Source: a virus. Taken from it: a DNA stretch of 28,210 nucleotides. The stretch's first letter is position 1. Every line of letters begins with the position of its first letter. A program made the position numbers and the translations under genes. Positions 6,241-27,681 of this stretch are shown here, piece after piece. The notes under the pieces were generated by a model. That model did no database searches, was not told the origin of the DNA, and saw only the letters and a program-made list of their open reading frames with translations. The stretch lies in IMG/VR virus record IMGVR_UViG_3300017917_002014, positions 1-28,210 of that record. The stretch is one strand, 5' to 3'.

Positions 6241-6241
6241 G

Positions 6242-6327: not shown

Positions 6328-6356
6328 TTGACTTCATACTTGTAAAGTGTTATATT
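6328..6356 (+). promoter_or_regulatory. Sigma70-type promoter for the gene at 6385
   Basis: TTGACT (6328-6333), exactly 17 bases, TATATT (6351-6356). The predicted start is near 6363, leaving a leader of about 22 bases containing ATAAACAACAAAC, shared with the promoter at 458-486. Confidence 0.7.
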
Positions 6357-6384
6357 ATATGTATAAACAACAAACAATAAATAT

Positions 6385-6723: not shown

Positions 6724-6726
6724 TGT

Positions 6727-7140: not shown

Positions 7141-7157
7141 AAAACAGAAAGTATATA

Positions 7158-8454: not shown

Positions 8455-8458
8455 TTAA

Positions 8459-9415
8459 ATGATATTAACTATACTATTATTTCTATCTGGTATTGCAGTA
8501 TCCGTTGTAGGTGCTTATTATTCTATACTTGGACTGGCTTCTTTATTTGCTGGTGCCTATTGGGCAGTTATTACAATGGGTGTTACATTAGAGATAGCCA
8601 AACTGGTAACAGTGTCTTGGTTATATCGTAATTGGAATTTAGATTTATTACCACAATCTATAAGAGCCTATCTATTATCAGCTGTATTGATGTTAATGTT
8701 TATTACTTCAATAGGTATCTTTGGTTTTTTATCAAAGGCACATTTAGATACAGCGGCACCTAATACAGGTAATAGATTATTAGTAAAGAATATTGAAAAA
8801 CAAATAGAATCGGAAAAGAAAGCAATAGAGGGAGCTCAAAAGATAGTTGACCAGTTGGATAAAGCATTAGATAAAGTTATTGATAAAGACGCTGATAAAG
8901 GTTTAATAGAAAGACAAAAACAACAAAACGAAAGAAATAGAGCCAACAACATTATTGCCAATTCATCTAAAAAGATTACAGATTTATCAAATCAAAAACT
9001 TAAATACGACAAAGACCAATTGGCCATAGACAAAGAGATAGGGCCATTTAAGTATGTTGCCGAGATATTATTTGGTGATGCTGATGATGGTAACCTAGAC
9101 AGAGCAGTAAGGTTTATTATTATATGTTTAATATTAGTATTTGACCCATTGGCTGTATTAATGTTGGTTGCGGTTAACGTATCTATAAAAGAATATCAAA
9201 GAAGTAAAGGTGTAAAAAACAAAGAAGAAGATTTAGAAAAGAAAATTGAAAGATTACAAAAGAAAAATGATTTATATAAAGAAAAACAAGGTGTGTTATT
9301 AAAATCAATTTTTGGCGAAAATGCAGACCAAAAATCGTTAGAACAATTAGATCCTAACGAAATTAAAATTAAACTAGATCAAATAATGGAGATAAAAGAT
9401 GAAAAAAATACTTAG
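8459..9415 (+). CDS. Multi-span membrane protein with a coiled coil, 318 aa
   Basis: Three hydrophobic stretches at the N terminus (about residues 2-22, 28-50, 68-92), then a long charged helical region rich in Lys, Glu and Gln (about 105-185), another hydrophobic segment (about 220-245, FIIICLILVFDPLAVLMLVA), and a second coiled coil (EEDLEKKIERLQKKNDLY). Membrane proteins of this build occur in T4-like cyanophages and pelagiphages with no known role. The last codons overlap the lipoprotein gene at 9399 by 17 bases. Confidence 0.75.
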   Translation: MILTILLFLSGIAVSVVGAYYSILGLASLFAGAYWAVITMGVTLEIAKLVTVSWLYRNWNLDLLPQSIRAYLLSAVLMLMFITSIGIFGFLSKAHLDTAAPNTGNRLLVKNIEKQIESEKKAIEGAQKIVDQLDKALDKVIDKDADKGLIERQKQQNERNRANNIIANSSKKITDLSNQKLKYDKDQLAIDKEIGPFKYVAEILFGDADDGNLDRAVRFIIICLILVFDPLAVLMLVAVNVSIKEYQRSKGVKNKEEDLEKKIERLQKKNDLYKEKQGVLLKSIFGENADQKSLEQLDPNEIKIKLDQIMEIKDEKNT

Positions 9416-9539
9416 TATATTTCTATTGATTTTTTTGGTAAATTGTACTACTACAACAACAAGTACAAATACTACACCAAAATCACCAATAGATAATGTT
9501 ATTGATGTTTTAAAAAACATACAATTTCCAAAAATGTAA
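9399..9539 (+). CDS. Small lipoprotein, 46 aa
   Basis: MKKILSIFLLIFLVNC is a short signal with a Cys placed like a lipoprotein modification site; the mature part starts CTTTTTSTNTTPKSP, a Thr-rich tether typical of small outer-membrane lipoproteins. It overlaps the end of the upstream membrane-protein gene. Size, overlap and closeness to the lysin make it an outer-membrane spanin candidate, but there is no sequence proof. Confidence 0.6.
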   Translation: MKKILSIFLLIFLVNCTTTTTSTNTTPKSPIDNVIDVLKNIQFPKM

Positions 9540-9551
9540 TTGACAATATAA

Positions 9552-9580
9552 TTGACAATACACTTAAAATTTGATATAAT
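9552..9580 (+). promoter_or_regulatory. Consensus sigma70-type promoter, leaderless
   Basis: TTGACA (9552-9557), 17 bases, TATAAT (9575-9580): a perfect consensus, with TGA directly before the -10 box. The ATG at 9587 lies 6 bases after the -10, where the transcript should begin. A second TTGACA lies 12 bases upstream (9540-9545) as part of a direct repeat ATTGACAATA. Confidence 0.75.
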
Positions 9581-9586
9581 GATATT

Positions 9587-9733
9587 ATGATTAAGTTAAC
9601 ACCTAAAGCACAATCACGTGCTATCAAAAAAGCAGCAAAAGCATTAAATGAAGCCGAATCAGTTTGGGCCAAGAAGTATTGGTTTAAAGTGTGGAAAGAC
9701 TTGTGCCTAAAATATAAAAGAACTATAAACTAA
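9587..9733 (+). CDS. Small basic protein, 48 aa
   Basis: First gene after the consensus promoter, with its ATG at the predicted transcription start. Sequence MIKLTPKAQSRAIKKAAKAL and WAKKYWFKVWKDLCLKYK is highly basic with Trp and Tyr, suggesting RNA or DNA binding. The stop shares a base with the next start (TAATG). It may be a host-takeover protein, which is inference only. Confidence 0.6.
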   Translation: MIKLTPKAQSRAIKKAAKALNEAESVWAKKYWFKVWKDLCLKYKRTIN

Positions 9734-10314
9734 TGAATATATTTTACCTAGATAAAAATCCTATAGTTGCAGCAGAAATGTCTTGCGATAAACACGTATG
9801 TAAAATGATTGTTGAATCAGCACAAATGTTATCAACTGCACATAGATTGATTGATGGTAAAGAATATATTGACAAAACTTCTAATGGACGTAAAATAACT
9901 AGATGGAAACATTCAGATAAAAACTTAGAAAAAATATTATATAAAGCTAGTCACGTAAAACACCCTAGTACAATATGGGTAATGCAATCAGCTTATAATT
10001 ATATATGGTTATATAAACATATGATGGCACTACATTCACAATTTAAACTAAGATATAATAAATCAGTAGATCATTTAACAATTCAAAAACTAGGTAATAT
10101 ATTAAAAACACCACCTAAAAATATACCTCTAAATAAAATTGGTACTGATCCTACACCGGCAATGCCAGATGAATGTAAAATACCAGGCGATGTTGTTGGT
10201 AGTTATAGAAAATATTATATAATGAAAAAAAAAGAATTTGCTACTTGGCGAGCACCTGCAGTTATACCTGAATGGTATAAAAAAGGAATTAATGAAAACT
10301 TATATACACGTTAA
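9733..10314 (+). CDS. Conserved phage protein, 193 aa, possible DNA-lesion glycosylase fold
   Basis: Begins MNIFYLDKNPIVAAEMSCDKHVCKMIVESAQML, a pattern common in many large phages (D..p..aA.....DKH..KM..E.aQ.L..aH). HPSTIWVMQSAYNYIWL and WRAPAVIPEWYKK also fit that family. I have seen it linked to the pyrimidine-dimer glycosylase superfamily, but I cannot confirm this, and the T4 denV signature is not evident. Confidence is high that it is a gene, low for its role. Confidence 0.75.
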   Translation: MNIFYLDKNPIVAAEMSCDKHVCKMIVESAQMLSTAHRLIDGKEYIDKTSNGRKITRWKHSDKNLEKILYKASHVKHPSTIWVMQSAYNYIWLYKHMMALHSQFKLRYNKSVDHLTIQKLGNILKTPPKNIPLNKIGTDPTPAMPDECKIPGDVVGSYRKYYIMKKKEFATWRAPAVIPEWYKKGINENLYTR

Positions 10315-10519
10315 CCAACATAAAATAAGAAGTAATAAAAAAAATGGAACGAATGAACCTGTTATTACAGTTAAACAAGGAAAAAAAAATATCTATTGTT
10401 CAGAAGTTAAAATACTTGGGCCATCTACTATTATCTATGGTGGTAACGACAAGCCTATACTTTCTTGTGGCGCTAGGGTTGTTATTTGTACTGAATCGGG
10501 TGTAAATATTATAAAATGA
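10292..10519 (+). CDS. Conserved T4-like phage small protein, 75 aa
   Basis: I chose ATG 10292 (MKTYIHVNQHKIRSNKKNG), which has AAGGA upstream; the frame is open back to 10238 inside the previous gene. NEPVITVKQG, YCSEVKILGPSTIIYGG and LSCGARVVICTES match a small beta-rich protein I recall from T4-like cyanophages. Function unknown. It overlaps the upstream gene by 23 bases and the QueF-like gene by 4. Confidence 0.7.
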   Translation: MKTYIHVNQHKIRSNKKNGTNEPVITVKQGKKNIYCSEVKILGPSTIIYGGNDKPILSCGARVVICTESGVNIIK

Positions 10520-10917
10520 AATTATATAATACAATAACTAAAGATTCTTTAAAATCATTACCTAATGCCGCTAAAGGTTATGAGCAAAGGATACATATAC
10601 CAGAATTTACTTTTTTAGGTGTACACGAGCAACCAGACTTTGGTGTTATCAGAATATGGTTTTACGGAAATGAAAAAACTATAGAATTAAAAAGTTTTAA
10701 AATGTATTTGTATCAATATAGAGATACAATTTTAAGTTATGAAAGATGTATAGATTTATTATATAAACATATAAAAGAAGTTTACGAACCAACAAGAGTT
10801 AGAATTGAAATAGGATTTAGACCTAGAGGTGGTATAAGCAGTAAATTAGTTGTGGATAGTGATTGGGGTCATTTGGGTGGTACAGATAAATTGTGGCAAG
10901 CACACGAGGTTGAATAA
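10516..10917 (+). CDS. QueF-like T-fold protein without the catalytic cysteine, 133 aa
   Basis: Strong similarity to the 7-cyano-7-deazaguanine (preQ0) reductase QueF: PEFTFL (29-34), QPDFG (39-43), the QueF motif IELKSFKMYLYQYR (56-69) and FRPRGGIS (101-108). In the bacterial enzyme PEFTSL is followed by CPxTG with the Cys that attacks the nitrile; here GVHE (35-38) stands there, one residue shorter, with no Cys. The His of the usual FHE is Tyr75 while the Glu (76) remains. It probably keeps the fold and a purine site but not ordinary nitrile reduction. ATGA couples it to its neighbour. Confidence 0.8.
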   Translation: MKLYNTITKDSLKSLPNAAKGYEQRIHIPEFTFLGVHEQPDFGVIRIWFYGNEKTIELKSFKMYLYQYRDTILSYERCIDLLYKHIKEVYEPTRVRIEIGFRPRGGISSKLVVDSDWGHLGGTDKLWQAHEVE

Positions 10918-11495
10918 TGAATATAATAACTGAAAACGAAATTATAAAAAAATATGATTTCTCATCTATTATAAGAACTAACGATAATATTGAAATTATT
11001 GATACAGTAAAAAGTATTATCGACTCGGGTAATTATTTTGATGAAAAAAATTCACCCAAATATCAAACTAAAGAAAACATATTTGGTAGACAACTACCAT
11101 CATTTTTAAAGCTAAGACTTACTTTCATTATGTCTTGTTTTTTTTATTTAAATAAAGAAGTAAAAATAAAAGGTGTTAATGCGTGGTCGTTTATGACTAA
11201 AAAAAATGATAATCCTGATAGAGATAATCTTTGGCATCATCATCACTATGATAAATCTATAAAAAAATTATCAGGTATATATTACGTACATATTCCACAC
11301 GATAAAGAAAATTATAATATATCAGGTACAGAATTTACTTTAGAAGATAGTCCAGAAAAAGGCAACCATTTTTTTGTTAAACCAGAATCTTTTTCTTGGT
11401 TAATATATCCTTCACATATATGGCATAGACCAGGAATAAATAATTCAGATGAATATAGATACGTTGTTGCAGCAGATATGGGATATATAGAGTAA
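10917..11495 (+). CDS. 2OG-Fe(II) oxygenase, 192 aa
   Basis: Double-stranded beta-helix signatures are present: HHHHYD (His110-x-Asp112), SGIYYVHIP, FFVKPESFSWLIYPSHIWHRPG (distal His170) and an Arg at 181 (YRYVVAADMGY) that would hold 2-oxoglutarate. The facial triad and Arg look intact, so it should be active. Such oxygenases are common in T4-like marine phages, targets unknown. It is tied to both neighbours by one-base stop/start overlaps. Confidence 0.8.
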   Translation: MNIITENEIIKKYDFSSIIRTNDNIEIIDTVKSIIDSGNYFDEKNSPKYQTKENIFGRQLPSFLKLRLTFIMSCFFYLNKEVKIKGVNAWSFMTKKNDNPDRDNLWHHHHYDKSIKKLSGIYYVHIPHDKENYNISGTEFTLEDSPEKGNHFFVKPESFSWLIYPSHIWHRPGINNSDEYRYVVAADMGYIE

Positions 11496-11800
11496 TGCCA
11501 ATATACAGTTTTGAAAATATAAAAACAGGTAAAGAATATACAGAACAGATGTCTATGTCGGAGTTAGATAATTACTTACTAAAGAATAAAAATGTAAGAC
11601 AAGTATTTACAACACTAAATATAGTTGGTGGAGTTGCTGGTCTTACTCATAAAACTGATCAAGGTTGGAAAGAGAATATGTCTAGGATTGCAGAAGCGCA
11701 TCCTAATAGTCCACTAGCAAAAAGATATGGTAAAAAAACTATTAAACAGTCTAAAACTGAACAAGTAATAGCTAAACATAGAAAGAAAAACAAATGGTAG
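11495..11800 (+). CDS. FmdB-like phage protein without zinc cysteines, 101 aa
   Basis: MPIYSFENIKTGKEYTEQMSMSELDNYL matches the start of FmdB-like proteins found in many T4-like cyanophages, as does the rest (GWKENMSRIAEAHPNSPLAKRYG, and a basic tail KHRKKNKW). Cellular FmdB proteins have a Cys-based zinc ribbon; this protein has no Cys, so it cannot bind zinc that way. The role is unknown. Confidence 0.7.
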   Translation: MPIYSFENIKTGKEYTEQMSMSELDNYLLKNKNVRQVFTTLNIVGGVAGLTHKTDQGWKENMSRIAEAHPNSPLAKRYGKKTIKQSKTEQVIAKHRKKNKW

Positions 11801-12189
11801 ACAAAAATATTCCTGATTATATGCGTGGCTTTGATTTAGATGAAGATTTTGGGTTTACACCTGTATCAAATAAACCAACAGAAACAACTCCTTCTATAGA
11901 CCCTAAAGTTATAGAATCAAATAATGTAGAGTTATCTAAAATTAAATCAGATGTATCATCAATTAAATCTATGATGAACGAAATAATGGAAATTGTAAAT
12001 GAAAAAGAAACTATTACAAAAGAATTAGCTAATGAAGATACAATCAAAAGATTTAAAGAAATTGAAAAAGTTATATTACCTTTTCTTTACAATTTAAGTA
12101 AGAGTGATGAACCATATATTCACTGGCCCAATAGGTCTCCTATAATTAAAGCACAAATAGATAAAATATTAAAACTTACAAGAGGATAA
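11794..12189 (+). CDS. Conserved phage protein with a coiled coil, 131 aa
   Basis: N terminus MVDKNIPDYMRGFDLDEDFGF is an acidic segment I associate with marine T4-like phage proteins; residues about 45-75 form a heptad-rich coiled coil (LSKIKSDVSSIKSMMNEIMEI); the C terminus (EPYIHWPNRSPIIKAQIDKI) is probably structured. No known function. It overlaps the FmdB-like gene by 7 bases. Confidence 0.7.
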   Translation: MVDKNIPDYMRGFDLDEDFGFTPVSNKPTETTPSIDPKVIESNNVELSKIKSDVSSIKSMMNEIMEIVNEKETITKELANEDTIKRFKEIEKVILPFLYNLSKSDEPYIHWPNRSPIIKAQIDKILKLTRG

Positions 12190-12190
12190 T

Positions 12191-12652
12191 ATGAACTTAA
12201 CGGAGAATGTATCATTAAAAGAACTAACTAAAAGCGAATCAGCAACAAGATTTGGCATTTCAAACGAACCAACAGAAGAAGCTTTAAGTAATTTACAAAA
12301 ATTAGCAACACATATATTACAACCAGTGAGAGATAATTTTGGTAAACCTTTAATCATCACTTCAGGCTATAGATCGCCTGAGCTTTGTGTAAAAATAGGA
12401 AGTACCACGACCAGCCAACACACCAAAGGCCAGGCGGCCGACTTTGAAATTGGTGGTATTGCTAATAAAGATTTAAGCGATTGGATTCACCAGAACCTTG
12501 ATTATGACCAATTGATACTTGAATTTTGGAAACCAGAAGATCCTAATAGTGGTTGGGTACATTGTTCTTATAAAGGTGAAGGATTAAATAGAAAACAATA
12601 TTTAAGAGCCATAACAGAAAACGGTAAGACGAAGTACGAACCAATGATTTAG
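12191..12652 (+). CDS. Peptidase M15 (D-Ala-D-Ala carboxypeptidase type), 153 aa
   Basis: Zinc-site motifs are clear: SQHTKGQAADFEI (His77 and Asp84) and GWVHCSY (His124), with TSGYRSPELC before them and EFW (Glu111) as the likely base. M15 enzymes cut peptide cross-links of peptidoglycan, so this could be a second lysin beside the glucosaminidase. There is no signal peptide, so it would need a holin. The stop is one base before the -35 box of the next promoter. GAGG precedes the start. Confidence 0.85.
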   Translation: MNLTENVSLKELTKSESATRFGISNEPTEEALSNLQKLATHILQPVRDNFGKPLIITSGYRSPELCVKIGSTTTSQHTKGQAADFEIGGIANKDLSDWIHQNLDYDQLILEFWKPEDPNSGWVHCSYKGEGLNRKQYLRAITENGKTKYEPMI

Positions 12653-12653
12653 G

Positions 12654-12682
12654 TTGACAAACGGCCTATATTATGATATATT
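12654..12682 (+). promoter_or_regulatory. Sigma70-type promoter, near-leaderless
   Basis: TTGACA (12654-12659), 17 bases, TATATT (12677-12682) with TGA before the -10. The ATG at 12691 lies 8 bases after the -10, so the message should begin about two bases before it. Confidence 0.75.
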
Positions 12683-12690
12683 ATTAGAAT

Positions 12691-13377
12691 ATGACAAAAA
12701 AATTTAATTTTATTAACGTTGACACTTCCGTATTACCACCATTAAAAAGAAAAAATGTAGATGGACATAGATATTATGAAATAGATGGTACAGCATATCC
12801 TTCAGTAACTACTATACTTTCACTTAAAAAAACAGAAGAATTAAAAGAATGGCGTTCTAAAGTCGGCGAAGATGTTGCTAATTGGGAAATGAAAAGAGCA
12901 GCATCAAGAGGCAACTCTTTACATACTTTAGTTGAACAATATATTAAAGGCGAAACACCTACAATAAGAGATGTATTACCATTAGGAATGTTTAGATTGT
13001 TAAAACCATATATTGATAAAATTGATAACGTACATTTACTAGAAACAGTTATGTATAGTAAAAAATTAACTATTGCTGGTCAATCAGATTGTATTGCAGA
13101 ATATGATGGTAAGTTATCTGTAATTGATTTTAAATCTGCTAATAAAGAAAGACAAGAAAGTTGGATTGAAAATTACTTCTTACAAACAACAGCATATGGT
13201 ATGATGTATGAAGAATTATATAATAAACCAATTGAACAAATTGTAGTATTACTTGCAGCAGAAGATGGTACTGTAGGAGTATGGACAAAAAATCCAAAAG
13301 ATTATCAAGCTAAGTTATTAGCATCTATTGAAAATTTTTATAAACATATAAACTCAAAACTTGAAGTACAAAAATAA
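12691..13377 (+). CDS. PD-(D/E)XK nuclease (RecB/Cas4-like), 228 aa
   Basis: Nuclease core: SRGNSLHTLVEQY (residues 72-84), GQSDCIAEYDGKLSVIDFKSA with Asp133, Asp146 and Lys148, and the downstream QTTAYGMMYEE (Gln165...Tyr169) typical of RecB-like exonucleases. It also carries TAYPSVTTIL near the start, seen in phage exonucleases of this group. It probably takes part in host DNA breakdown or phage recombination. It has its own promoter with almost no leader. Confidence 0.85.
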   Translation: MTKKFNFINVDTSVLPPLKRKNVDGHRYYEIDGTAYPSVTTILSLKKTEELKEWRSKVGEDVANWEMKRAASRGNSLHTLVEQYIKGETPTIRDVLPLGMFRLLKPYIDKIDNVHLLETVMYSKKLTIAGQSDCIAEYDGKLSVIDFKSANKERQESWIENYFLQTTAYGMMYEELYNKPIEQIVVLLAAEDGTVGVWTKNPKDYQAKLLASIENFYKHINSKLEVQK

Positions 13378-13381
13378 ATGT

Positions 13382-13999
13382 ATGTATTACGTAGATTTAC
13401 CAGAACTTCCTAGTGAACTTATATATTCTATAAAAATTCAAGCCAATATTATGGCACTTGATGAAAATTGTAATTCAGGAAAAGAATACAATAAAAATAA
13501 AAATTTTGCATATACAGAAATAGAAGAATTTTTATATTCAAAACTTGTAAGTGATCTTTTATTACCAAAACTTAAAAAACCAACTACATCATATATATTT
13601 GCGTTAAGAAATAAACAAAATATACCAGCAGATTTCCCACCACATCTTGATGAGTATAGAAAATTAAGTTTAAATTATATAGTTGAAACAGGTGGTAATA
13701 ATGTACAAACTTCATTTTACGACTTAGAAAGACCTAAAGATGATAAAGAGTTTAAATCTAAAAATATTCCATATGAAGATTTAATTAAAACTCAAAAATA
13801 TGTTTTACTAAAAAACAAATGGAATTTATCTAATACACAAGTATGCCATAGTGTAGAAAATTTAGATGATTTAAGAATTATTTTATTTGTAGTATTTGAC
13901 GATAATACTGATTATGAAACTTTTACAAAAGATTATACGGAACTATTAACTGAAGTACCTAATTTATTGACAGTATTTAATTCCAATAAATTTATATAA
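13382..13999 (+). CDS. 2OG-Fe(II) oxygenase-like protein, 205 aa
   Basis: I chose ATG 13382 (MYYVDLPELPSELIY), four bases after the nuclease stop; an upstream TTG at 13361 would overlap it. FPPHLDEYRKLSLNYIVET gives His88-x-Asp90, and WNLSNTQVCHSVENLDDLRII gives His156 and Arg165 at the spacing of the jelly-roll oxygenases. The rest is divergent, so substrate and activity are open. A hairpin follows its end. Confidence 0.55.
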   Translation: MYYVDLPELPSELIYSIKIQANIMALDENCNSGKEYNKNKNFAYTEIEEFLYSKLVSDLLLPKLKKPTTSYIFALRNKQNIPADFPPHLDEYRKLSLNYIVETGGNNVQTSFYDLERPKDDKEFKSKNIPYEDLIKTQKYVLLKNKWNLSNTQVCHSVENLDDLRIILFVVFDDNTDYETFTKDYTELLTEVPNLLTVFNSNKFI

Positions 14000-14003
14000 T
14001 ATA

Positions 14004-14028
14004 GAGGTATGTAAAAATAGCATACCTC
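14004..14028 (+). terminator. Hairpin after the oxygenase-like gene
   Basis: GAGGTATG (14004-14011) and CATACCTC (14021-14028) pair perfectly over a 9-base A-rich loop. No T run follows. The late-type promoter at 14045 is 17 bases downstream. Confidence 0.5.
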
Positions 14029-14044
14029 ATATGTTGAAACCTCA

Positions 14045-14052
14045 TATAAATA
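14045..14052 (+). promoter_or_regulatory. T4-type late promoter, leaderless
   Basis: TATAAATA followed by ATATT and then ATG at 14058. The run TATAAATAATATTATG differs by one base from that at 24577-24562 on the minus strand. In T4 the start lies about six bases after the last A, here at the ATG. Confidence 0.5.
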
Positions 14053-14057
14053 ATATT

Positions 14058-14252
14058 ATGATAGAACGATTAAAAGACTTAATATCTAAAAACTATACAG
14101 ATAAACAAGTTAAAGAAAAGAACGACATTCTATTGAGAAGTAGAAAAGAAGTTGAAATTAATGGTAATGGTACGTCAGGATACACTATAAAAGAAGGCGA
14201 ACATAAAGGTACCGTATTAGGCCATATCACTAGAAGTCCTAAAGTAATTTAA
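14058..14252 (+). CDS. Small protein, 64 aa, probably late-expressed
   Basis: The start at 14058 (MIERLKDLISKNYTDKQVKEK) is preferred over the in-frame 14031 because 14031 lies right behind a terminator stem and upstream of the late promoter box. The C-terminal half (GNGTSGYTIKEGEHKGTVLGHITRSPKVI) is Gly-rich and probably beta-stranded. No family recognised. Confidence 0.55.
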   Translation: MIERLKDLISKNYTDKQVKEKNDILLRSRKEVEINGNGTSGYTIKEGEHKGTVLGHITRSPKVI

Positions 14253-14256
14253 CTGG

Positions 14257-14285
14257 TTGACAATTAATCTAAAATAGTATATATT
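14257..14285 (+). promoter_or_regulatory. Sigma70-type promoter with a structured leader
   Basis: TTGACA (14257-14262), 17 bases, TATATT (14280-14285). The start should be near 14292, right before the hairpin at 14295-14326, so the transcript would start with a stem-loop. The gene at 14356 follows. Confidence 0.7.
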
Positions 14286-14294
14286 AATATATAT

Positions 14295-14326
14295 GGAACA
14301 ATCTTAGGGAAACCTAAGATTGGTCC
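14295..14326 (+). promoter_or_regulatory. Long 5'-terminal hairpin with GAAA tetraloop
   Basis: Fourteen positions on each side (14295-14308 and 14313-14326) pair with one A-G mismatch and close on a GAAA tetraloop (GNRA type). It begins about three bases after the predicted transcription start. Such 5' stem-loops protect mRNA from decay in E. coli; that role here is inferred. Confidence 0.6.
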
Positions 14327-14355
14327 TCCATAATAAAAACTATAAAGGATATATT

Positions 14356-14559
14356 ATGAAAAACATTATAATGTTTTTAACTGCTTTACTTTTCACAGTA
14401 TCAGTATCGGCACAAACACCAGCTCCTAAAAAAGAGGAAGCTAAACCAGCTGTAAAGGCTGAAGTTTGCGTTGAAAAAGATAAAGATGGTAAAGCAATCA
14501 TAGACAAAAAAACTGGCAAACCAGTTGTTTGTCCTAAAAAAGACGAAAAGAAAAAGTAG
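14356..14559 (+). CDS. Small secreted Lys-rich protein, 67 aa
   Basis: AAAGGA lies 8 bases before ATG 14356. MKNIIMFLTALLFTVSVSAQ is a clear signal peptide with likely cleavage after SVSA. The mature part is a low-complexity, Lys/Pro/Ala-rich chain with two Cys (VCVEKD and VVCPKK) and a Lys-rich end. It is probably periplasmic; the Cys pair could form a disulfide. The leader hairpin suggests strong, stable expression. Confidence 0.65.
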   Translation: MKNIIMFLTALLFTVSVSAQTPAPKKEEAKPAVKAEVCVEKDKDGKAIIDKKTGKPVVCPKKDEKKK

Positions 14560-14570
14560 TCTAAAGAATT

Positions 14571-14591
14571 TGGAGGGCCTAAAGCCCTCCA
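14571..14591 (+). terminator. Hairpin after the secreted protein gene
   Basis: TGGAGGGC (14571-14578) and GCCCTCCA (14584-14591) pair perfectly over a 5-base loop. The late promoter box begins five bases later, so there is no room for a long T run. Confidence 0.6.
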
Positions 14592-14595
14592 GATG

Positions 14596-14603
14596 TATAA
14601 ATA
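14596..14603 (+). promoter_or_regulatory. T4-type late promoter
   Basis: TATAAATA, with a leader of about 35 bases and a strong ribosome site (AAGGAG at 14632-14637) before ATG 14644. It follows a terminator, which supports an independent late unit. Confidence 0.6.
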
Positions 14604-14643
14604 GTAATGCTATAAACAAACACACACAGAAAAGGAGATAATT

Positions 14644-14982
14644 ATGGCAACAACATCAAAAAACGGTTATGAAATCCGTTCAGACCTATTAGGCTTAGCT
14701 AAATCATTAGTTGAGTTTAATTTTCAAGCACAAGTAAAAGAGTACGAGTACAACATCAAAAAAGAAGGCGACCAAGTAGTACAAGAGTTTAAAGCTCCTA
14801 CTTATTCTGCTAACGACATTATTGAAGTAGCAAAGCAATTTAACGACTTTGTAACTAACAATGATTACACAAAAACTGTACAAGAAAATATAACTAAAGC
14901 ACAAGAAATGGCAAAACCATACGCTGAAGCATATCAAAATACAGTAAAGGCTTTCTTTCCAAATTTAAGAAACGGGAAGTAA
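14644..14982 (+). CDS. Conserved late-type phage protein, 112 aa
   Basis: A strong Shine-Dalgarno (AAAAGGAGATAATT) and a late promoter precede it. The N terminus (NGYEIRSDLLGLAKSLVEFNFQAQ) and a central AYSANDII-like segment resemble a small protein conserved in T4-like marine phages; the whole chain is helical, including TKAQEMAKPYAEAYQNTVKAF. Expression signals suggest an abundant late protein. No function is known to me. Confidence 0.75.
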   Translation: MATTSKNGYEIRSDLLGLAKSLVEFNFQAQVKEYEYNIKKEGDQVVQEFKAPTYSANDIIEVAKQFNDFVTNNDYTKTVQENITKAQEMAKPYAEAYQNTVKAFFPNLRNGK

Positions 14983-14983
14983 T

Positions 14984-15148
14984 ATGACGCCGTACAATAT
15001 TTGTGAAAACAAATGGTTAAGTAAAGTTAAAGAAAAAGCAAAAAAACATTATAACGATAACAAAACTTTATACGTTGGTTATTTTTATATAATGATTTTA
15101 GCTGTAGTAATTTTAGCTATAATAACTTCCATAGATAGTTTTTATTAA
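14984..15148 (+). CDS. Single-span small membrane protein, 54 aa
   Basis: ATG 14984 starts one base after the upstream stop. Basic N-terminal half (ENKWLSKVKEKAKKHYND) and a C-terminal helix YFYIMILAVVILAIITSI, so a tail-anchored topology is likely. Followed by the terminator at 15155. Function unknown. Confidence 0.6.
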   Translation: MTPYNICENKWLSKVKEKAKKHYNDNKTLYVGYFYIMILAVVILAIITSIDSFY

Positions 15149-15154
15149 TATAAA

Positions 15155-15178
15155 CAATGGCCACTTCGGTGGCCATTG
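15155..15178 (+). terminator. UUCG hairpin terminator overlapping a promoter
   Basis: CAATGGCCAC (15155-15164) and GTGGCCATTG (15169-15178) form a ten-pair stem with a TTCG loop, the most stable RNA tetraloop type (C-UUCG-G). Its last three bases lie in the TTGACA of the next promoter. Confidence 0.75.
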
Positions 15179-15204
15179 ACAATCCGCCTAAATTATGATA
15201 TAAT
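15176..15204 (+). promoter_or_regulatory. Consensus sigma70-type promoter, leaderless
   Basis: TTGACA (15176-15181), 17 bases, TATAAT (15199-15204), TGA before the -10. The ATG at 15210 is 5 bases after the -10. It drives the operon 15210-18666. Confidence 0.75.
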
Positions 15205-15209
15205 GTATT

Positions 15210-15824
15210 ATGAATAATTATCATAGATATATTAAATTACCTTTTACATATCCAAAACCAAAATTATTCAATACTCAACCTGATAAATGGCAAATTGTAG
15301 CCGTACCTCCAGAAGAAATATATCAACCTTTTTTAGATTGGTTTAAACCATTTGGTGATAAACATAATATAAAGATATCAAAAGTATTAGAAGCTTTTTA
15401 TACTGCACCTAATAATAAATTTCATATACATAATGATTCATTTTATCTATCGAATATGACTAAGTTAAATTTTACTTGGGGACCAACCAATAGTTTAACT
15501 AGATGGTGGAAAATAAAAAATGAAAAAAATTTAAAAACTTTACATTATCCTGTACAAGGATCACCAGAAAAACCTGATATTATACCTAATAGACCTCACG
15601 ACTATGATAATGCCACATTGGCAGAAGAAGAAGATTGTGAAATAGTATATGAAAAAGTAATAGATAAACCTAGTTTATTAAATGTAGGACACTTACATTC
15701 TGTATATAATCCAAATAAAGATCAAGGCAGATGGACATTATGTTTTATACTATTAAAAAATGATGGTAGTCTATTAGAATTTTTAGATGCTGTAGAGATA
15801 TTTAAAGATACAGTATATGAATAA
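15210..15824 (+). CDS. 2OG-Fe(II) oxygenase-like protein, 204 aa
   Basis: First gene of the operon, leaderless. NKFHIHNDSFYLSNMTKLNFTW gives His74-x-Asp76, and LLNVGHLHSVYN (His161/His163) and RWTLCFIL (Arg174) give the distal His and an Arg for 2-oxoglutarate, as in aspartyl-hydroxylase/phytanoyl-type jelly rolls. The WGPTNSLTRWWK insert is unusual. It overlaps the radical SAM gene by 8 bases, so the pair is probably translated together. Confidence 0.6.
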   Translation: MNNYHRYIKLPFTYPKPKLFNTQPDKWQIVAVPPEEIYQPFLDWFKPFGDKHNIKISKVLEAFYTAPNNKFHIHNDSFYLSNMTKLNFTWGPTNSLTRWWKIKNEKNLKTLHYPVQGSPEKPDIIPNRPHDYDNATLAEEEDCEIVYEKVIDKPSLLNVGHLHSVYNPNKDQGRWTLCFILLKNDGSLLEFLDAVEIFKDTVYE

Positions 15825-16911
15825 ATTATACAATACACATTCATTATGTCATATATGCTATAGACATATACCTGCTGAAGTATATGTAGATAATAATATT
15901 AGATATATTAAAAAAGAATGCCCAACACACGGTCCATTTAAATTTATACAAGATCCGGATGCAGAATTTTGTGAGAAGTTAAAACAAAAAACTAATAAAG
16001 TTTATCGTAGAATATTAATGTTAGAAACTACTGATAAATGCAATTTAAAGTGTCCTCATTGCTATCATATACCCAATAATGTTAAAAAAGATTTAGATAT
16101 ATTAAAAATATATGATGATATTAAGAACGCACCTAAAGATATTAAAGATATTATACTAGCTGGTGCCGAACCAACAATGAGAGATGAGATATTTAATATA
16201 ATAGATTATTGTAATACAAATAATAGAACAGCAAGTCTTTTAACAAATGGTGTTAGACTACACGATATAAATTTTGTAAAAAAATTAAAAAAACATAACA
16301 TACACGCTGTAGAGATAGGTTTAAATCATCATTCTTATCAAGGTAAAAAAATACATAATAAACAATTACAAGGTATAAAAAATTGTATAGATGTTGGAGT
16401 TAAAATTCATTACATAGGTTATACTGTAGAAAAGTATGATCATTTAGTAGATATTATAAAAGAAATAAAAACATTCCCAATATATAGAGATAATAAAAAT
16501 AAAAAAAGATATCAATTTAGAATTAGATTAGGTAGTGATATTGGTAGAATACCAAATGAGCCAACAGCATTTATTAGTACTAATTATAAAGAAATAGAAA
16601 AAGTTGCTAATGAATTGGGTCACGATTTAATAAGTGGTAATAATGAAGGCGATGATAATATGTATCATATGTTCGGTTATATAGATGGTCATAAGATTAG
16701 AATTATACAATGGCCAGATGCTAAAAACATAGATATGAGCCAATTAAAACATTCACCTTGGGCTAAATTTAACAGACAAAATTATATAACAAATTTTGTA
16801 CATCAAGTTATAACAAGAGATGCATATGTAAATAAAAAATTACCTGTATTAGATGATGTACCGGACACTTATAAATATAGTATAGTAAACGACGGAGATA
16901 TAAATGGCTAA
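15817..16911 (+). CDS. Radical SAM enzyme with N-terminal Cys ribbon, 364 aa
   Basis: The 4Fe-4S motif DKCNLKCPHCYH (Cys75, Cys79, Cys82) is followed by the GEP-type motif ILAGAEPTMRDE and LLTNGVRL, so the SAM core is complete. The N terminus has a second Cys set, LCHICYRHIPAEVYV and KKECPTHGPF, resembling the zinc-ribbon start of the MJ0619/Tes (tetraether lipid synthase) radical SAM family. The C-terminal part (VHQVITRDAYVNKKL) is less typical. It should make a 5'-deoxyadenosyl radical; the substrate is unknown. Overlaps both neighbours by 8 bases. Confidence 0.85.
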   Translation: MNKLYNTHSLCHICYRHIPAEVYVDNNIRYIKKECPTHGPFKFIQDPDAEFCEKLKQKTNKVYRRILMLETTDKCNLKCPHCYHIPNNVKKDLDILKIYDDIKNAPKDIKDIILAGAEPTMRDEIFNIIDYCNTNNRTASLLTNGVRLHDINFVKKLKKHNIHAVEIGLNHHSYQGKKIHNKQLQGIKNCIDVGVKIHYIGYTVEKYDHLVDIIKEIKTFPIYRDNKNKKRYQFRIRLGSDIGRIPNEPTAFISTNYKEIEKVANELGHDLISGNNEGDDNMYHMFGYIDGHKIRIIQWPDAKNIDMSQLKHSPWAKFNRQNYITNFVHQVITRDAYVNKKLPVLDDVPDTYKYSIVNDGDING

Positions 16912-17536
16912 TAAAAATATTGTAGTTACATTAACTAATGATATTGTTTTTGAAACAGAACAAAATTACAAAACAAATTTTGATATATATTTTAATAACA
17001 ATATATTTACTAGCAATAAAGAATTACAATTAACTTCAAACAATATACAAAAATCTATTGAAGTTGATTTTGATTTCGATATTCCAAATACAATTAGATT
17101 AATAGTGTTTGCTAAATCGTCACAAAAATTATTCAATTCTATAGAACAATATGATATAGAAATAAAACCTAATGAAAATTATATACCTAATACTAATAAA
17201 TTATTTGATTTATCTATAAACATTAATGAAAATTTTTTAACAAATAATCCTACTAATATAACTTATGATGATGTATTAAAAAATGATAGACCAGATATTA
17301 TAGATTGGAAAAAAGAATACTTGTTTAATAATGAAGTCCTTGGTGTTTACACTAAAGATACTCCTAACAATCAAAATTTAAATAATAAATTTTCAAAAAC
17401 AGCATACCTTTGGAATTTAAATGATAAATTACAATTTGATATTAAAGAAATGTATATCAGCAATAAACCAGAATTATTAGGTAAAGAGGGTTATTGTTTA
17501 CCAGGAAATAGTACTATTAGATTTGAAATTATATAA
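16904..17536 (+). CDS. Unknown beta-rich protein in the radical SAM operon, 210 aa
   Basis: GGAG precedes ATG 16904, which lies inside the end of the radical SAM gene. The chain is Asn- and Ile-rich with alternating strands (NIVVTLTNDIVF, TIRLIVFAKSSQKLF), one Trp segment (IDWKKEYLFNNEVLGVY) and a conserved-looking end (GKEGYCLPGNSTIRFEII). It has no signal peptide and no motif I know. Position suggests a partner or carrier for the enzymes on each side, but nothing in the sequence proves this. Confidence 0.7.
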   Translation: MANKNIVVTLTNDIVFETEQNYKTNFDIYFNNNIFTSNKELQLTSNNIQKSIEVDFDFDIPNTIRLIVFAKSSQKLFNSIEQYDIEIKPNENYIPNTNKLFDLSININENFLTNNPTNITYDDVLKNDRPDIIDWKKEYLFNNEVLGVYTKDTPNNQNLNNKFSKTAYLWNLNDKLQFDIKEMYISNKPELLGKEGYCLPGNSTIRFEII

Positions 17537-17544
17537 TTTTAATT

Positions 17545-18666
17545 ATGAACAATATGATGTTACAAGGTTTGATACCTGGAATACAAACTAATATAAATCT
17601 AGCTACAGATAGTTGGCAATTTGGAACTATTATTAACAATCAAAAAATTATTGACAGTAGTATAGGTCAAGGTTGTTTTACTCTTGGTTTTAAAAGACAC
17701 GATATAATAGATTATGTATGTAATAAACTAAAAACATATAAACCAGAATGCGCCGAATCATTAATAGGAAATACAGATGAAATATTATTAAATGATGTAT
17801 CTTTTGAATTATCTCAAAAATTATACAATATAAGTGGTGGTTATAAAAGTTTTTATTCTTTATCAGGTAGTGATGCAAATGAAGGTGCAATCAAATTAGC
17901 ATCTGCATATCATTATAAAAAAGGTAATAATTTTAAACATAAAATTGTTAGTTTCAAAAATAGTTATCACGGTAGTACGTTTTTAAATTACAATTTGGGC
18001 GATGCATTATTTGAAAATCCTTTTTATAGTTTATTACCATATGAACACACAATACGATTAGATAAAAATTTTGAATTAGGAGATATTGATTGGACCCAGG
18101 TTGCAGCAATTATAGTAGAAACACGATCTTGGAGTAATTGGTTAAAGAAAGAACCTACTGATTTTTGGAATAAATTAGAACAAATTAGATATACTTTTGA
18201 TGTATTAATTATTATAGATGATATTTTTATAGGTGGGGGTAAAACTGGTGAGGTAATAGGATGGAAATCTTTAGATATTAAACCTGATATATTTACATTA
18301 GGTAAATCTATCACAGCTGGATACTTTCCATTATCTATAACGCTTTATAACGATAAAGTCAATGCAATTCTTCCTAAAGACTTCAACTGGGATCACGGAT
18401 TTACTTACAGTTTTTCATTACCTGGAATATTGAGCACATTAAAATACCTTGACATATTAGAAAAAGAAAATATATTTTCAAATTTCAAAACTTTACAACA
18501 TAGAACCGAGTCTGTAATTAATACTACTAATTTTTTAATTAAAAATCAGTTTGGATTAATATATAATATAACAAATGGTAAACAAAACTTTTTGTATGTA
18601 ATACCATTAAATGCCACAGATGAGTACTTCAGCATATTAAAAAATACCCTTGACAAATACCTATAG
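17545..18666 (+). CDS. Class III PLP-dependent aminotransferase, 373 aa
   Basis: Clear fold-type I signatures: SIGQGCFTLGF, SLSGSDANEGAIKLA, FKNSYHGSTF (Tyr/His-Gly), VLIIIDDIFIGGGKTG (the Asp that binds the PLP pyridine nitrogen) and LGKSITAGYFPLS with the PLP lysine at residue 254. The family includes aminomutases, ornithine-type aminotransferases and sugar aminotransferases. It is slightly short for the family and the second half is divergent. Class III enzymes are rare in T4-like phages. The stop region also holds the next promoter. Confidence 0.85.
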   Translation: MNNMMLQGLIPGIQTNINLATDSWQFGTIINNQKIIDSSIGQGCFTLGFKRHDIIDYVCNKLKTYKPECAESLIGNTDEILLNDVSFELSQKLYNISGGYKSFYSLSGSDANEGAIKLASAYHYKKGNNFKHKIVSFKNSYHGSTFLNYNLGDALFENPFYSLLPYEHTIRLDKNFELGDIDWTQVAAIIVETRSWSNWLKKEPTDFWNKLEQIRYTFDVLIIIDDIFIGGGKTGEVIGWKSLDIKPDIFTLGKSITAGYFPLSITLYNDKVNAILPKDFNWDHGFTYSFSLPGILSTLKYLDILEKENIFSNFKTLQHRTESVINTTNFLIKNQFGLIYNITNGKQNFLYVIPLNATDEYFSILKNTLDKYL

Positions 18667-18678
18667 TTGTGATATATT
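18650..18678 (+). promoter_or_regulatory. Sigma70-type promoter, leaderless, inside a coding end
   Basis: TTGACA (18650-18655), 17 bases, TATATT (18673-18678), TGA before the -10. The -35 is made by the codons for Leu-Asp-Lys at the end of the aminotransferase. The ATG at 18684 lies 5 bases after the -10. Confidence 0.75.
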
Positions 18679-18683
18679 ATAGT

Positions 18684-18899
18684 ATGAACTCTAAAGAATT
18701 TTCACTTAAAATAGAAAACTTAGTACAATCTAAAAAGATGTTGTCTTATATGGATGCTGTATTATTTTTCTGTGAGGAAAATGATATAGACCCTAGTACT
18801 GTGGCTAATTTATTATCTAAATCTATTAAAGATAAAATAACTGTAGAGGCTCAAAATTTAAACTATATACCTAAGACGGGTAGATTACCAGGAGTATAA
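18684..18899 (+). CDS. 33: gp33-like late-transcription coactivator, 71 aa
   Basis: ATG 18684 is preferred over the in-frame 18669, which would lie inside the -10 region. MNSKEFSLKIENLVQSKK, SYMDAVLFFCEENDID and EAQNLNYIPKTG resemble the small gp33 proteins of T4-like marine phages; T4 gp33 joins RNA polymerase to the sliding clamp at late promoters. Its position directly before gp59 and ahead of gp32 is the T4 order 33-59-32, which supports the call. Confidence 0.65.
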   Translation: MNSKEFSLKIENLVQSKKMLSYMDAVLFFCEENDIDPSTVANLLSKSIKDKITVEAQNLNYIPKTGRLPGV

Positions 18900-18900
18900 A

Positions 18901-19515
18901 ATGTATGGTGGATTTGACGTATTTAAAACATACCTTGCAGTTAAATTACACTTTACAACAGATAGTTATGACTACCATAAATATTCCGGTGAAGTTAACT
19001 GTACATTAGATACATTTACTAAAAGAAATGATAGATATTTTTTTCACAAACTTAGCACCAGATACGGTAAAGATGATATATTGGGCTTTTTTGTTAGTAA
19101 TTTTCTGGTTGATAGTAACAAGTGGGTAAAGAATTTAACAAATCAAGATGGTAAAGATGTTTTTACAGATTGGAAAAAACGTAATGAATCTTTTGAATAT
19201 CATTTTAGAAATGATTGTGTCACTATTACTAATGACTTTAATGCTAAGCAGTTTTCTTTTGATAATGGTTTTAGCGTTTTTGGTGGACAGCATCCTAGGT
19301 TTTTTCAATTGGTTTTATCAAAAAAAATATCTTACGAAACTGCTGTCGTTTTTAATAAAATCTTATCTTATAGTAAGTCTTGGGACAAACAGATTGTTGA
19401 ACAAGTGGTTTGGCCAGTCCACTCCAAAAGGATAAAAAAATATACACCTTTTGTAAAGTATAATGAGACACAATGTAAATTAATAATGAAGGAGGTTTTT
19501 ATAAATGGATCATAG
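18901..19515 (+). CDS. 59: Helicase loader gp59
   Basis: 204 residues, close to T4 gp59 (217). Matches in order: FDVFKTYLAVKLHF, YDYHKYSGEV, KRNDRYFFHKLSTRYGK, FFVSNFLVDSNKWV, FFQLVLSKKISYETAVVF. gp59 loads the gp41 helicase on gp32-coated forks. It follows gp33 by one base with GGAG upstream, and gp32 lies further on in the same direction, as in T4. Two sequence-similar genes are inserted between them. Confidence 0.8.
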   Translation: MYGGFDVFKTYLAVKLHFTTDSYDYHKYSGEVNCTLDTFTKRNDRYFFHKLSTRYGKDDILGFFVSNFLVDSNKWVKNLTNQDGKDVFTDWKKRNESFEYHFRNDCVTITNDFNAKQFSFDNGFSVFGGQHPRFFQLVLSKKISYETAVVFNKILSYSKSWDKQIVEQVVWPVHSKRIKKYTPFVKYNETQCKLIMKEVFINGS

Positions 19516-19723: not shown

Positions 19724-19724
19724 T

Positions 19725-20842: not shown

Positions 20843-21690
20843 AAGTTTTTTGTATTGGTAATGGTGAAAGTAGAAAAGGTTTTGATTTAAATAAACTAAA
20901 ACCATTTGGAAAAATATATGGTTGTAATGCTCTCTATAGAGAGTTTACTCCAGATGTTCTGGTATCTGTTGATCACGGTATAATGCATGAAATATATCAT
21001 AGTGGTTATAGTATTAATAATAATTGTATTTTTAGAGATTGGACAAAAATACCAGATTTACATTATCAAACATTAGTATATGAGGGTATGTCAGAAGATG
21101 ATATAAACAGAATTGCAAAATGGGATATGATAAAACAAAATGATAAACCAGAAGGCAGTTGTGAATTTGTAATGCATGGTGCAAAATTAGAAGGTGTGGC
21201 TAAAATTGTAAATGGTTATAATAATGATGAAATGATTATTAAAGAAAAATATGTCAATCAAACTCAATTATATGTAAGTTGGTTACATATAAAAGATAAA
21301 GTAACTTGTATTACTGATGTATTAGGTTTTGATTATGGATATTCAGCAGGCACTACTTCATTATACATATCAGCAGTTATTGATAAGCCTAAAGAAATAT
21401 ATCTAATTGGACACGATTTAAATACTACAACTGGTAACCTAAACAATATCTATAAAGATACAAAACATTATATGGCATCTTATAATAAACAAACTGATTT
21501 TGATAAATGGATAAATCAATTAAAAACAATATTTACTAATAATCCTGATATACAATTTTATAAGGTTAATAATTCATTAAATCCTTTACATAATGATGAT
21601 AAGGTTAATATAATATGGGAAGAATTTAAAGGGATCAAAAATCTACATTATATCACATATGAAGTACTTGACAAACACCTACAATTGTGA
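20839..21690 (+). CDS. MptE/DUF115-like protein, copy 2, 283 aa
   Basis: MKVFCIGNGESRKGFDLNKL and GCNALYREFTPDVLVSVDHG are almost the same as in copy 1; FVMHGAKL, IYLIGHDLNT and NNIYKDTKHYM also align. The middle differs, so the duplication is old or one copy has been replaced. Its last codons (VLDKHLQL) contain the TTGACA of the gp32 promoter. Confidence 0.65.
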   Translation: MKVFCIGNGESRKGFDLNKLKPFGKIYGCNALYREFTPDVLVSVDHGIMHEIYHSGYSINNNCIFRDWTKIPDLHYQTLVYEGMSEDDINRIAKWDMIKQNDKPEGSCEFVMHGAKLEGVAKIVNGYNNDEMIIKEKYVNQTQLYVSWLHIKDKVTCITDVLGFDYGYSAGTTSLYISAVIDKPKEIYLIGHDLNTTTGNLNNIYKDTKHYMASYNKQTDFDKWINQLKTIFTNNPDIQFYKVNNSLNPLHNDDKVNIIWEEFKGIKNLHYITYEVLDKHLQL

Positions 21691-21696
21691 TATTAT
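21668..21696 (+). promoter_or_regulatory. Sigma70-type promoter of gp32, inside a coding end
   Basis: TTGACA (21668-21673), 17 bases, TATTAT (21691-21696). Spacer and -35 closely match those at 18650. The start is near 21703, with a leader of about 50 bases. Confidence 0.7.
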
Positions 21697-21701
21697 AAAT
21701 A
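21694..21701 (+). promoter_or_regulatory. T4-type late promoter of gp32
   Basis: TATAAATA, sharing three bases with the -10 box of the early promoter. Dual early/late expression fits a protein needed all through replication, as for T4 gene 32. Confidence 0.5.
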
Positions 21702-21753
21702 ATAATGATAGCGATTATACAGCTAACACAAATACAAACATACGGAGAATACA

Positions 21754-24264: not shown

Positions 24265-24564
24265 TTAGCCTATCTGTTCTTCTTCTATTTTTTTGGCTTC
24301 TAACTTTTTAGTTTCAATCTTTTCTTGTGTTCTACCATATGCTGATATACCTAATACAGCTCCCATACAAATATGAAAGAAACCAGCACCTTGTAATGTA
24401 AGTGGCATCCATTGTGTAAATACAATATTCTTTAAATAGGTTGCTTGTGCTAAATTCCATAGTATAGGAAATATAACAAAATCAAATGCACAAACAGTCA
24501 GATATAACCAACCCATTGCTGGACGCCATTTAGTATTAAAATTTGATTCTTTTTGATTATTCAT
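24265..24564 (-). CDS. Holin of the 3TM type, 99 aa
   Basis: TKWRPAMGWLYLTVCAFDFVIF and QWMPLTLQGAGFFHICMGAVLGISA are the signatures of the GTA/phage 3TM holin family (KWRP.....Y ... fDf..fP; LtLqgaG). Three hydrophobic helices (about 16-34, 40-52, 60-78) and a charged C-terminal tail. It lies directly before the tape-measure-like gene. Late box TATAAATA lies 5 bases before the ATG. It would release the endolysins coded on the other strand. Confidence 0.75.
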   Translation of the reverse strand: MNNQKESNFNTKWRPAMGWLYLTVCAFDFVIFPILWNLAQATYLKNIVFTQWMPLTLQGAGFFHICMGAVLGISAYGRTQEKIETKKLEAKKIEEEQIG

Positions 24565-24569
24565 AATAC

Positions 24570-24577
24570 TATTTATA
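24570..24577 (-). promoter_or_regulatory. T4-type late promoter, leaderless, for the holin
   Basis: On the minus strand TATAAATA is followed by GTATT and then ATG at 24564. The run TATAAATAGTATTATG is one base different from the late box at 14045-14060. Confidence 0.55.
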
Positions 24578-26134: not shown

Positions 26135-27116
26135 ATAGATTTAATGGCGGTAAATTACCAAATGGAGGAAACACTCTACCACCTGTAACACCACCGATTG
26201 GTATACGTCTTTTAATACCTTCTAATACTTGTGTTCCAGCTCTACGTAATTCTGGTGGTAATCTATTCATTAATCCACCAAAAGCACCATAACTACTTTT
26301 TACATCTACATTTCTGAAGTTTGGCTCACCTAATGCAATAGTGCCACGACGATCTAAGGAATAATTTACCCAATATCTAAATGTAAATGTAACGTTAAAC
26401 GTTGTTATAGTATCAGTATCAGCATATGCATAGTCAACAACTCCTATTGTCTTAGGGAAACAATCAAATAATTTTACAGCATATGTTACATCATCTCTCT
26501 CTGCCTTACTAGCATAACTTCCTAATTGAAATATGTTTATATCAGATACATAATTATCATAAAAATTAAAATTATGAGATTGAGTACTAAACGCAGCTGC
26601 TTGCCACATTTCAAAGTATGATCTTTCTCTTAAAAATTTATCACTATAGAATGTAGCTGTTATATCAGCTGATTTATAATCATATGCAATTTTACGAGCT
26701 GGACCTGCAGTTTTAACTTCTAACGTTTGTATATCTCTATCTGGCATAGATATTGCATTACAAAAAGCATTTACTCTTTTAGCATTTGAATTTTGAATAG
26801 GTATTAGATCGCTTTGTTTTTTAAATGTTTGTAATGTTTCTTCTGCACTTAAAGACGGTTCGCTTAAATCATCACCTAAGACAACTGAATTAGCACCTTT
26901 GGGTAAATAAAACTCTACATAAAATCTTGCCTTACGAGCAAATCCTTCTGCCTCATTAACATATGAGTGCATTCTACCCATTGTAGTTTCTTTTTGTGGT
27001 CCTTGAGGTCGTCTAAATCTTGAATCATTTTCTACATTATCTAATGATCGATCACGAGGTAATCCTAATCTTACATCAAACCCACCAATACGAACTCCAC
27101 CTCTTAAAATAGCCAT
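26133..27116 (-). CDS. gp54/gp48-like tail tube initiator protein, 327 aa
   Basis: RFYVEFYLP, RVNAFCNAISMPDRDIQTLEVKT, IAYDYKSADITATFYSD, FEMWQAAAF, and the C-terminal CFPKTIGVVDYAYADTDTITTFNVTFTFRYW follow the fold of gp19-type tube proteins as in gp54/gp48. The length is near T4 gp54 (320). The tail (GVTGGRVFPPFGNLPPLNL) is Gly/Pro-rich. AAGGAG lies before the ATG. I cannot choose between gp48 and gp54. Confidence 0.7.
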   Translation of the reverse strand: MAILRGGVRIGGFDVRLGLPRDRSLDNVENDSRFRRPQGPQKETTMGRMHSYVNEAEGFARKARFYVEFYLPKGANSVVLGDDLSEPSLSAEETLQTFKKQSDLIPIQNSNAKRVNAFCNAISMPDRDIQTLEVKTAGPARKIAYDYKSADITATFYSDKFLRERSYFEMWQAAAFSTQSHNFNFYDNYVSDINIFQLGSYASKAERDDVTYAVKLFDCFPKTIGVVDYAYADTDTITTFNVTFTFRYWVNYSLDRRGTIALGEPNFRNVDVKSSYGAFGGLMNRLPPELRRAGTQVLEGIKRRIPIGGVTGGRVFPPFGNLPPLNL

Positions 27117-27667
27117 TAGATAAAACTCCTTGAGGCTGCATATACTGAACTAGCAGGTCTTTTTTGAAATTGTTGTACAGGTAAGTAACAAGCAATAGCT
27201 GCTTGTGATAAATCTATTTTTAAAAAACTAGACCTTACGTGTTTATATAAGTATTTTTTAATAGTAGGTTTAATCATAGGAATATTTTTAACTCTTGCCC
27301 AGCTGACATCAAATCTAGCATCTTTTAATCTAGGACTTGTTGCCCAACGTTGCATATTTTCTAATAATCTTAATCTTAATAATGGTGGTAGATAGTGAAA
27401 ATTTAATCCACTAAATCCACCTTTGATAGTTTCCAATGGTAATACTAATGGAAACGTATCATAATATGGTAAAGTTTCTTTATACTTTGGATCATAAAAG
27501 AATAAATTTAATAAACCTAAATTAGGTCTAGCAGTCAATGTACCTTGTGCCATTAACTTATTAGCACTAATCTTCTGACCAATAGATTGTATGGCGTTTT
27601 TATACCAACTTGCTGATTTAGTAGTATCGCCTTGTTTATTAGCTAATTTATCTAGTATTGAAACCAT
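27116..27667 (-). CDS. Conserved T4-like structural protein, 183 aa
   Basis: NLGLLNLFFYDPKYKETLPYYDTFPLVLPL and GGFSGLNFHYLPPLLRLRLLE are typical of a small protein conserved in T4-like marine phages next to gp4, sometimes labelled DNA end protector (gp2); I cannot confirm that. The N terminus is helical (ILDKLANKQGD) and the C terminus basic. TATAAATA lies 6 bases before the ATG, so it would be leaderless. The stop shares a base with the next start. Confidence 0.7.
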   Translation of the reverse strand: MVSILDKLANKQGDTTKSASWYKNAIQSIGQKISANKLMAQGTLTARPNLGLLNLFFYDPKYKETLPYYDTFPLVLPLETIKGGFSGLNFHYLPPLLRLRLLENMQRWATSPRLKDARFDVSWARVKNIPMIKPTIKKYLYKHVRSSFLKIDLSQAAIACYLPVQQFQKRPASSVYAASRSFI

Positions 27668-27673
27668 TTACTA

Positions 27674-27681
27674 TATTTATA
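27674..27681 (-). promoter_or_regulatory. T4-type late promoter, leaderless
   Basis: TATAAATA on the minus strand, then TAGTAA and ATG at 27667. The distance to the start codon matches the late boxes at 24570 and 14045 to within one base. Confidence 0.5.

Follow-up and report, generated by a model that had tools for sequence, protein, structure and literature searches.

Transcripts that open directly at their start codon are established in bacteria. In the alphaproteobacterium Caulobacter crescentus, 375 leaderless mRNAs have been mapped and use of the Shine-Dalgarno (SD) sequence is low (PMC4117421), and in the TA-led leaderless genes the start codon follows the -10 box at a distance of about 10-12 nt (PMC3160421, PMC12340547). 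For phages of the T4 type, the late promoter box precedes the transcription start by about one helical turn (PMC2988020). A genome study of pelagimyophages attempted to predict middle and late promoters, without success (PMC7029224), and we found no description of leaderless expression in these phages in the open-licence PMC literature. Here we analyse a 28.2-kb viral record, the whole of which we call the window, in which promoters of two classes lie so close to their genes that transcription would be predicted to begin at, or almost at, the start codon.

Results

Affiliation of the window

Among isolates, Pelagibacter phage Mosig EXVC030M is nearest to the T4-like core genes of the window (76% identity in gp32 and 61% in the exonuclease), followed by HTVC008M and then by cyanophages. 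Judged by these nearest isolates, the window represents a genome fragment of a T4-like, pelagimyophage-like virus (Kyanoviridae), and its relatives point to SAR11 as the putative host. A tRNA search of the window, intended as a clue to the host, found none, and an Rfam search of the window gave no match.

Four sigma70 promoters set close to the ATG

A first-pass annotation of this DNA had listed promoters at 9552, 12654, 15176 and 18650, with -10 boxes 5 to 8 bases before the start codon and no SD at any of these starts. All four are indeed present at those coordinates, which denote the first base of the -35 box. The gap, defined as the number of nucleotides between the last -10 base and the ATG, is 6, 8, 5 and 5 nt, respectively, and the 20 nt upstream of each start are devoid of an SD. 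The four promoters are near consensus, each with a TG extended -10 and a spacer of 17 nt that has TGA at its end, and all four genes start with ATG (Table 1). In the case of the gp33-like protein, this start is ATG 18684 and not the mechanically called GTG 18669, because the homologues begin with MNSKEF.

Table 1. Promoters and associated genes of the window (gap, nucleotides between promoter box and ATG)
Feature	Position	Strand	Remarks
Extended sigma70 promoter TTGACA-17-TATAAT	9552..9580	+	Predicted +1 at 9587
48-aa ORF	9587..9733	+	Gap 6, predicted leaderless; conserved small protein WAK..YWF..LC.KY
Extended sigma70 promoter TTGACA-17-TATATT	12654..12682	+	
PD-(D/E)XK exonuclease, 228 aa	12691..13377	+	Gap 8, predicted near-leaderless
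Late promoter TATAAATA	14045-14052	+	Gap 5, ATG 14058, 64-aa ORF; element 14045..14252
Extended sigma70 promoter TTGACA-17-TATAAT	15176..15204	+	Adjoins hairpin 15155-15178
204-aa protein, no family match	15210..15824	+	Gap 5, predicted leaderless
Extended sigma70 promoter TTGACA-17-TATATT	18650..18678	+	-35 and part of spacer within upstream ORF (stop 18664-18666)
gp33-like late-transcription coactivator, 71 aa	18684..18899	+	Gap 5, predicted leaderless
Leadered gp32 case	21668..21753	+	Overlapping sigma70 and late promoters (late box TATAAATA at 21694-21701), then a covarying hairpin (21709-21725) and an SD; gp32 at 21754
Late promoter TATAAATA	24577-24570	-	Gap 5, ATG 24564, holin-like gene, 99 aa; element 24265..24577
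Late promoter TATAAATA	27681-27674	-	Gap 6, ATG 27667, DNA end protector (gp2-like, 183 aa); element 27116..27681

In Mosig, the homologue of the 48-aa ORF is the C-terminal part (52 aa) of Mosig_00156. In the latter gene (L003:17675-17872), the annotated GTG start sits at the -35 box of a TTGCCA-17-TATAAT promoter; the true start is likely the ATG located 39 nt downstream of this GTG, with a gap of 6. We also noticed that the hairpin GGCCACTTCGGTGGCC stands right against the -35 box of the 15176 promoter, and that a matching hairpin-promoter module occurs upstream of gp33 in relatives (for example, L017, L021, L024, L027 and L031).

In AT-rich DNA, strings of this kind could be random matches, and weak promoter-like matches between 5000 and 24900 are in fact not commoner than in shuffled sequence (128 vs 138.7). 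However, the strict pattern TTGAC-N15-TGNTATNNT-N5-9-ATG occurs five times in the window and 27 times over 15 phage records, against none for the reversed control in either set, and the promoter is kept upstream of orthologues while the surrounding sequence turns over. We consider an origin by random matching hardly credible. The four named promoters belong to the 11 best matches of the scan of 5000-24900 (11-12 of 12 positions). Their shared spacing had also been called unlikely to be chance, and our estimate agrees: four of five gaps within 5-9 nt gives P about 2e-4, by hand arithmetic with gaps assumed uniform over 0-60 nt. The strict short-gap pattern had no matches in six SAR11 genomes, two SAR11 podophages, HMO-2011 and T4.

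Sigma70 promoters in related phages

The relatives comprise IMG/VR homologues of five window genes and two isolate genomes, about 320 related loci in which ORFs were called mechanically, and provided 260 unique extended promoter contexts upstream of an ATG ORF. A gap of 5-9 nt is present in 150 of these 260 (10 at 5 nt, 62 at the mode of 6, 20 at 7, 24 at 8 and 34 at 9); none have gaps of 0-4 nt and 11 have gaps of 10-14 nt. An SD accompanies 6% of the starts at gaps of 4-9 nt, never within the transcribed part, and 86, 56 and 91% of those at gaps of 15-24, 25-39 and 40-99 nt, respectively. Such sequence counts are non-independent, as the loci were fetched around five genes, which is only partly answered by counting families. 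Thirty protein families have such a promoter upstream, and the gap is short in 17; any SD occurs in 3 of 17 short-gap families, and an SD majority in 7 of 14 long-gap families.

Orthologues can differ in layout. In the exonuclease family, the promoter is placed either at the ATG without SD or about 30 nt upstream together with an SD of the GAAGGTGA type; an SD is found in 0 of 16 short-gap members versus 24 of 36 long-gap members. The WAK..WF small-protein family likewise includes both layouts, with a GGAGG SD in the leadered versions. Upstream of gp33, the promoter recurs 5-8 AT-rich nt before the ATG, although the sequence farther upstream varies from one group of relatives to another. At short-gap starts, a T precedes the ATG in 85% of cases, which fits a pyrimidine at -1 and a purine at +1 of the start site. 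When ATG, GTG, TTG and CTG codons opening at least 60 codons at gaps of 5-9 nt were counted, 92 were ATG and two TTG; ATT and ATA opened long frames at short gap in 17 and 14 cases, which we take as the background of AT-rich DNA.

Bacterial start sites vary by a few nucleotides, and one could imagine that transcription starts elsewhere, or that the true start codon lies downstream, leaving an ordinary leader within the apparent coding sequence. This seems very improbable to us, since the N-termini are conserved from residue one (MNSKEF for gp33 in nearly all relatives), the Pfam Trans_coact alignment begins at residue 1, and in the longer-leader orthologues the corresponding ATG directly follows their SD.

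Late promoters with the same layout

The window also contains late promoters TATAAATA with the same short-gap layout (Table 1). They were absent from the first-pass annotation, and two of them are outside the range that it covered. The layout of the promoter at 14045 is found again in four relatives (L012, L016, L025 and L028), and the mechanical start of the 64-aa ORF at 14031 is probably wrong, with ATG 14058 as the predicted start.

Late promoters of the relatives show a mode at a gap of 5 nt that is even sharper than the sigma70 mode (79 of 351; gaps of 3-8 nt, 109 of 351), whereas five control octamers of the same composition gave 1-5 cases at this gap and no such peak. An SD is present at 2% of the late starts with gaps of 3-8 nt versus 73-88% of those with gaps of at least 15 nt. 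Counted by family, 16 have a gap of 5 and no other gap is represented by more than five families; any SD occurs in 2 of 20 short-gap families, and an SD majority in 26 of 30 long-gap ones. At the family level, the contrast in SD use is thus weaker for early promoters than for late ones, where it is clear. Late promoters at gaps of 4-9 nt number 3 of 26 in Mosig and 6 of 18 in HTVC008M, 0 of 6 in the cyanophage Syn33 and 0 of 15 in the cyanophage P-SSM2; in T4, 0 of 25 late promoters have a gap below 13 nt. Nevertheless, extended sigma70 promoters with a gap of 6 occur twice in P-SSM2, and the early layout is therefore not strictly confined to SAR11 phages.

Since the last base of the sigma70 -10 hexamer is at -7 and that of the T4 late octamer at around -6, gaps of 6 and 5 nt, respectively, both place the A of the ATG at +1. 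Gaps of 8-9 nt would leave leaders of 2-3 nt, not zero.

These modes also bear on the possibility that the promoters are real but that translation takes place mainly from upstream read-through operon mRNA, by coupling or by SD-independent internal initiation, the short gap being a consequence of genome compactness. The genes are closely packed indeed: the 18650 promoter overlaps the end of the upstream gene, the 12654 promoter begins immediately 3' of a stop codon, and some relatives of gp33 and of the small protein lie inside operons without any promoter. However, compactness alone predicts broad gaps and not sharp modes at 6 (sigma70) and 5 (late), with sigma70 gaps of 0-4 nt empty and few at 10-14 nt, and the compact genomes of T4 and cyanophages lack the late short-gap mode. 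We therefore regard this explanation as improbable, although less so than a misplaced start, and favour transcription starting at or near the ATG.

Genes with leaders

The first-pass annotation had set these units against genes with longer leaders and other elements, at 6385, 14356 and 21754. This is borne out for 14356 and 21754, which have SDs, but not for 6385, which is without a recognisable SD. Between 14257 and 14355, a promoter TTGACA-17-TATATT is followed, 7 nt past its -10 box, by a 4-codon ORF (ATG 14293), then by a hairpin and by the SD-led gene at 14356. The promoter at 21668, the fifth match of the strict pattern in the window, was considered as a further leaderless unit and rejected: the ATG at 21705 opens a 19-codon ORF that relatives do not retain, which makes gp32 (21754) a leadered gene, and the SD of gp32 itself also contradicts a leaderless unit.

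The gp32 leader carries, just past the late start site, a hairpin of the form TAGC-(9-nt loop)-GCTA. In 24 relatives its four pairs always form, and three of them show changes on both sides (covariation 0.899, against 0.189 when shuffled); it has no match in Rfam. This hairpin is possibly an autoregulatory operator of gp32, like that of T4 gene 32.

The host background

The short-gap layout is not clearly evident in SAR11 itself. The strict extended promoter occurs once in 800 kb of two SAR11 genomes. SDs precede 17-19% of intergenic starts, versus 7% in shuffled sequence. Hexamers resembling the -10 box are enriched at gaps of 5-8 nt (52 vs 22.5 expected), but reversed controls are likewise enriched (42 vs 24.7). 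We found no mapped SAR11 transcription starts in the open-licence PMC literature.

Discussion

The earlier prediction of leaderless or nearly leaderless messages gains support from the distribution of gaps in relatives, the exclusion of SDs at short gaps, the orthologues that switch layout and the late class that peaks at its own +1. We thus think it very probable, from sequence comparison, that these promoters yield mRNAs that are leaderless or have leaders of 1-3 nt, and that ribosomes initiate on them at the 5'-terminal AUG. In our opinion, leaderless messages are most strongly supported by the fact that the two promoter classes differ in register and yet each peaks at its own predicted +1. 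Both the +1 position and the mode of translation of these genes are inferred here from the DNA sequence.

According to the mechanism that we propose, the host RNA polymerase, carrying the primary sigma factor, would read the near-consensus extended -10 promoter and, about 7 nt beyond the -10 box, begin transcription at, or a few nt from, the A of the ATG. The 5' end of the mRNA would then lie at or just before the AUG, translation would proceed without SD pairing, and the terminal AUG would probably be recognised by 70S ribosomes or ribosomes loaded with initiator tRNA. In the late phase of infection, transcription by the gp55/gp33 RNA polymerase would begin likewise from TATAAATA boxes located 5 nt before the ATG, and genes with longer leaders would mostly use an SD instead.

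If so, our analysis supplies concrete models of early and late promoters with a built-in +1, and suggests corrections of annotated start codons (Mosig_00156, and 14031 in the window). The orthologues switching between leaderless and SD-led expression form a natural set in which to examine when one mode is preferred over the other. The 30S ribosomal protein S21 is annotated in both isolate pelagimyophages, Mosig and HTVC008M (L005:9932-10141 and L009:42228-42431), and phage-encoded S21 might affect the choice of messages by the ribosome. In a broader and rather doubtful scenario, this T4-like lineage would have fused transcription and translation starts, early and late, a set of its regulatory, replication and lysis genes would depend on 5'-AUG initiation, and the phage could redirect host ribosomes from SD-led to leaderless messages or back, for instance via its own S21.

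Leaderless mRNA is already known, but a T4-like lineage in which both promoter classes use it systematically appears to be undescribed in the open-licence PMC literature. The predicted messages resemble those of C. crescentus in beginning at AUG, although the latter were mapped by experiment and derive from cellular genes (PMC4117421). They also recall the TA-led leaderless genes, or -10-adjacent ORFs, of bacterial surveys and Deinococcus-Thermus, in which an SD is lacking and transcription is predicted to start at the start codon (PMC3160421, PMC12340547); those are, however, genes of cellular genomes with -10 signals only, whereas here we find full -35/extended -10 phage promoters and a second, late-sigma class. 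Phage mRNAs starting at the first codon are known for lambda cI and predicted for cluster O mycobacteriophages (PMC4351075), in both cases from isolated promoters, in contrast to the lineage-wide layout in both expression classes described here. Finally, the window shares with T4 the combination of sigma70 early promoters and TATAAATA late promoters, read in T4 by gp55/gp33 (PMC2988020), and encodes a gp33 homologue, but T4 late genes keep at least 13 nt from TATAAATA to the ATG, mostly with an SD.
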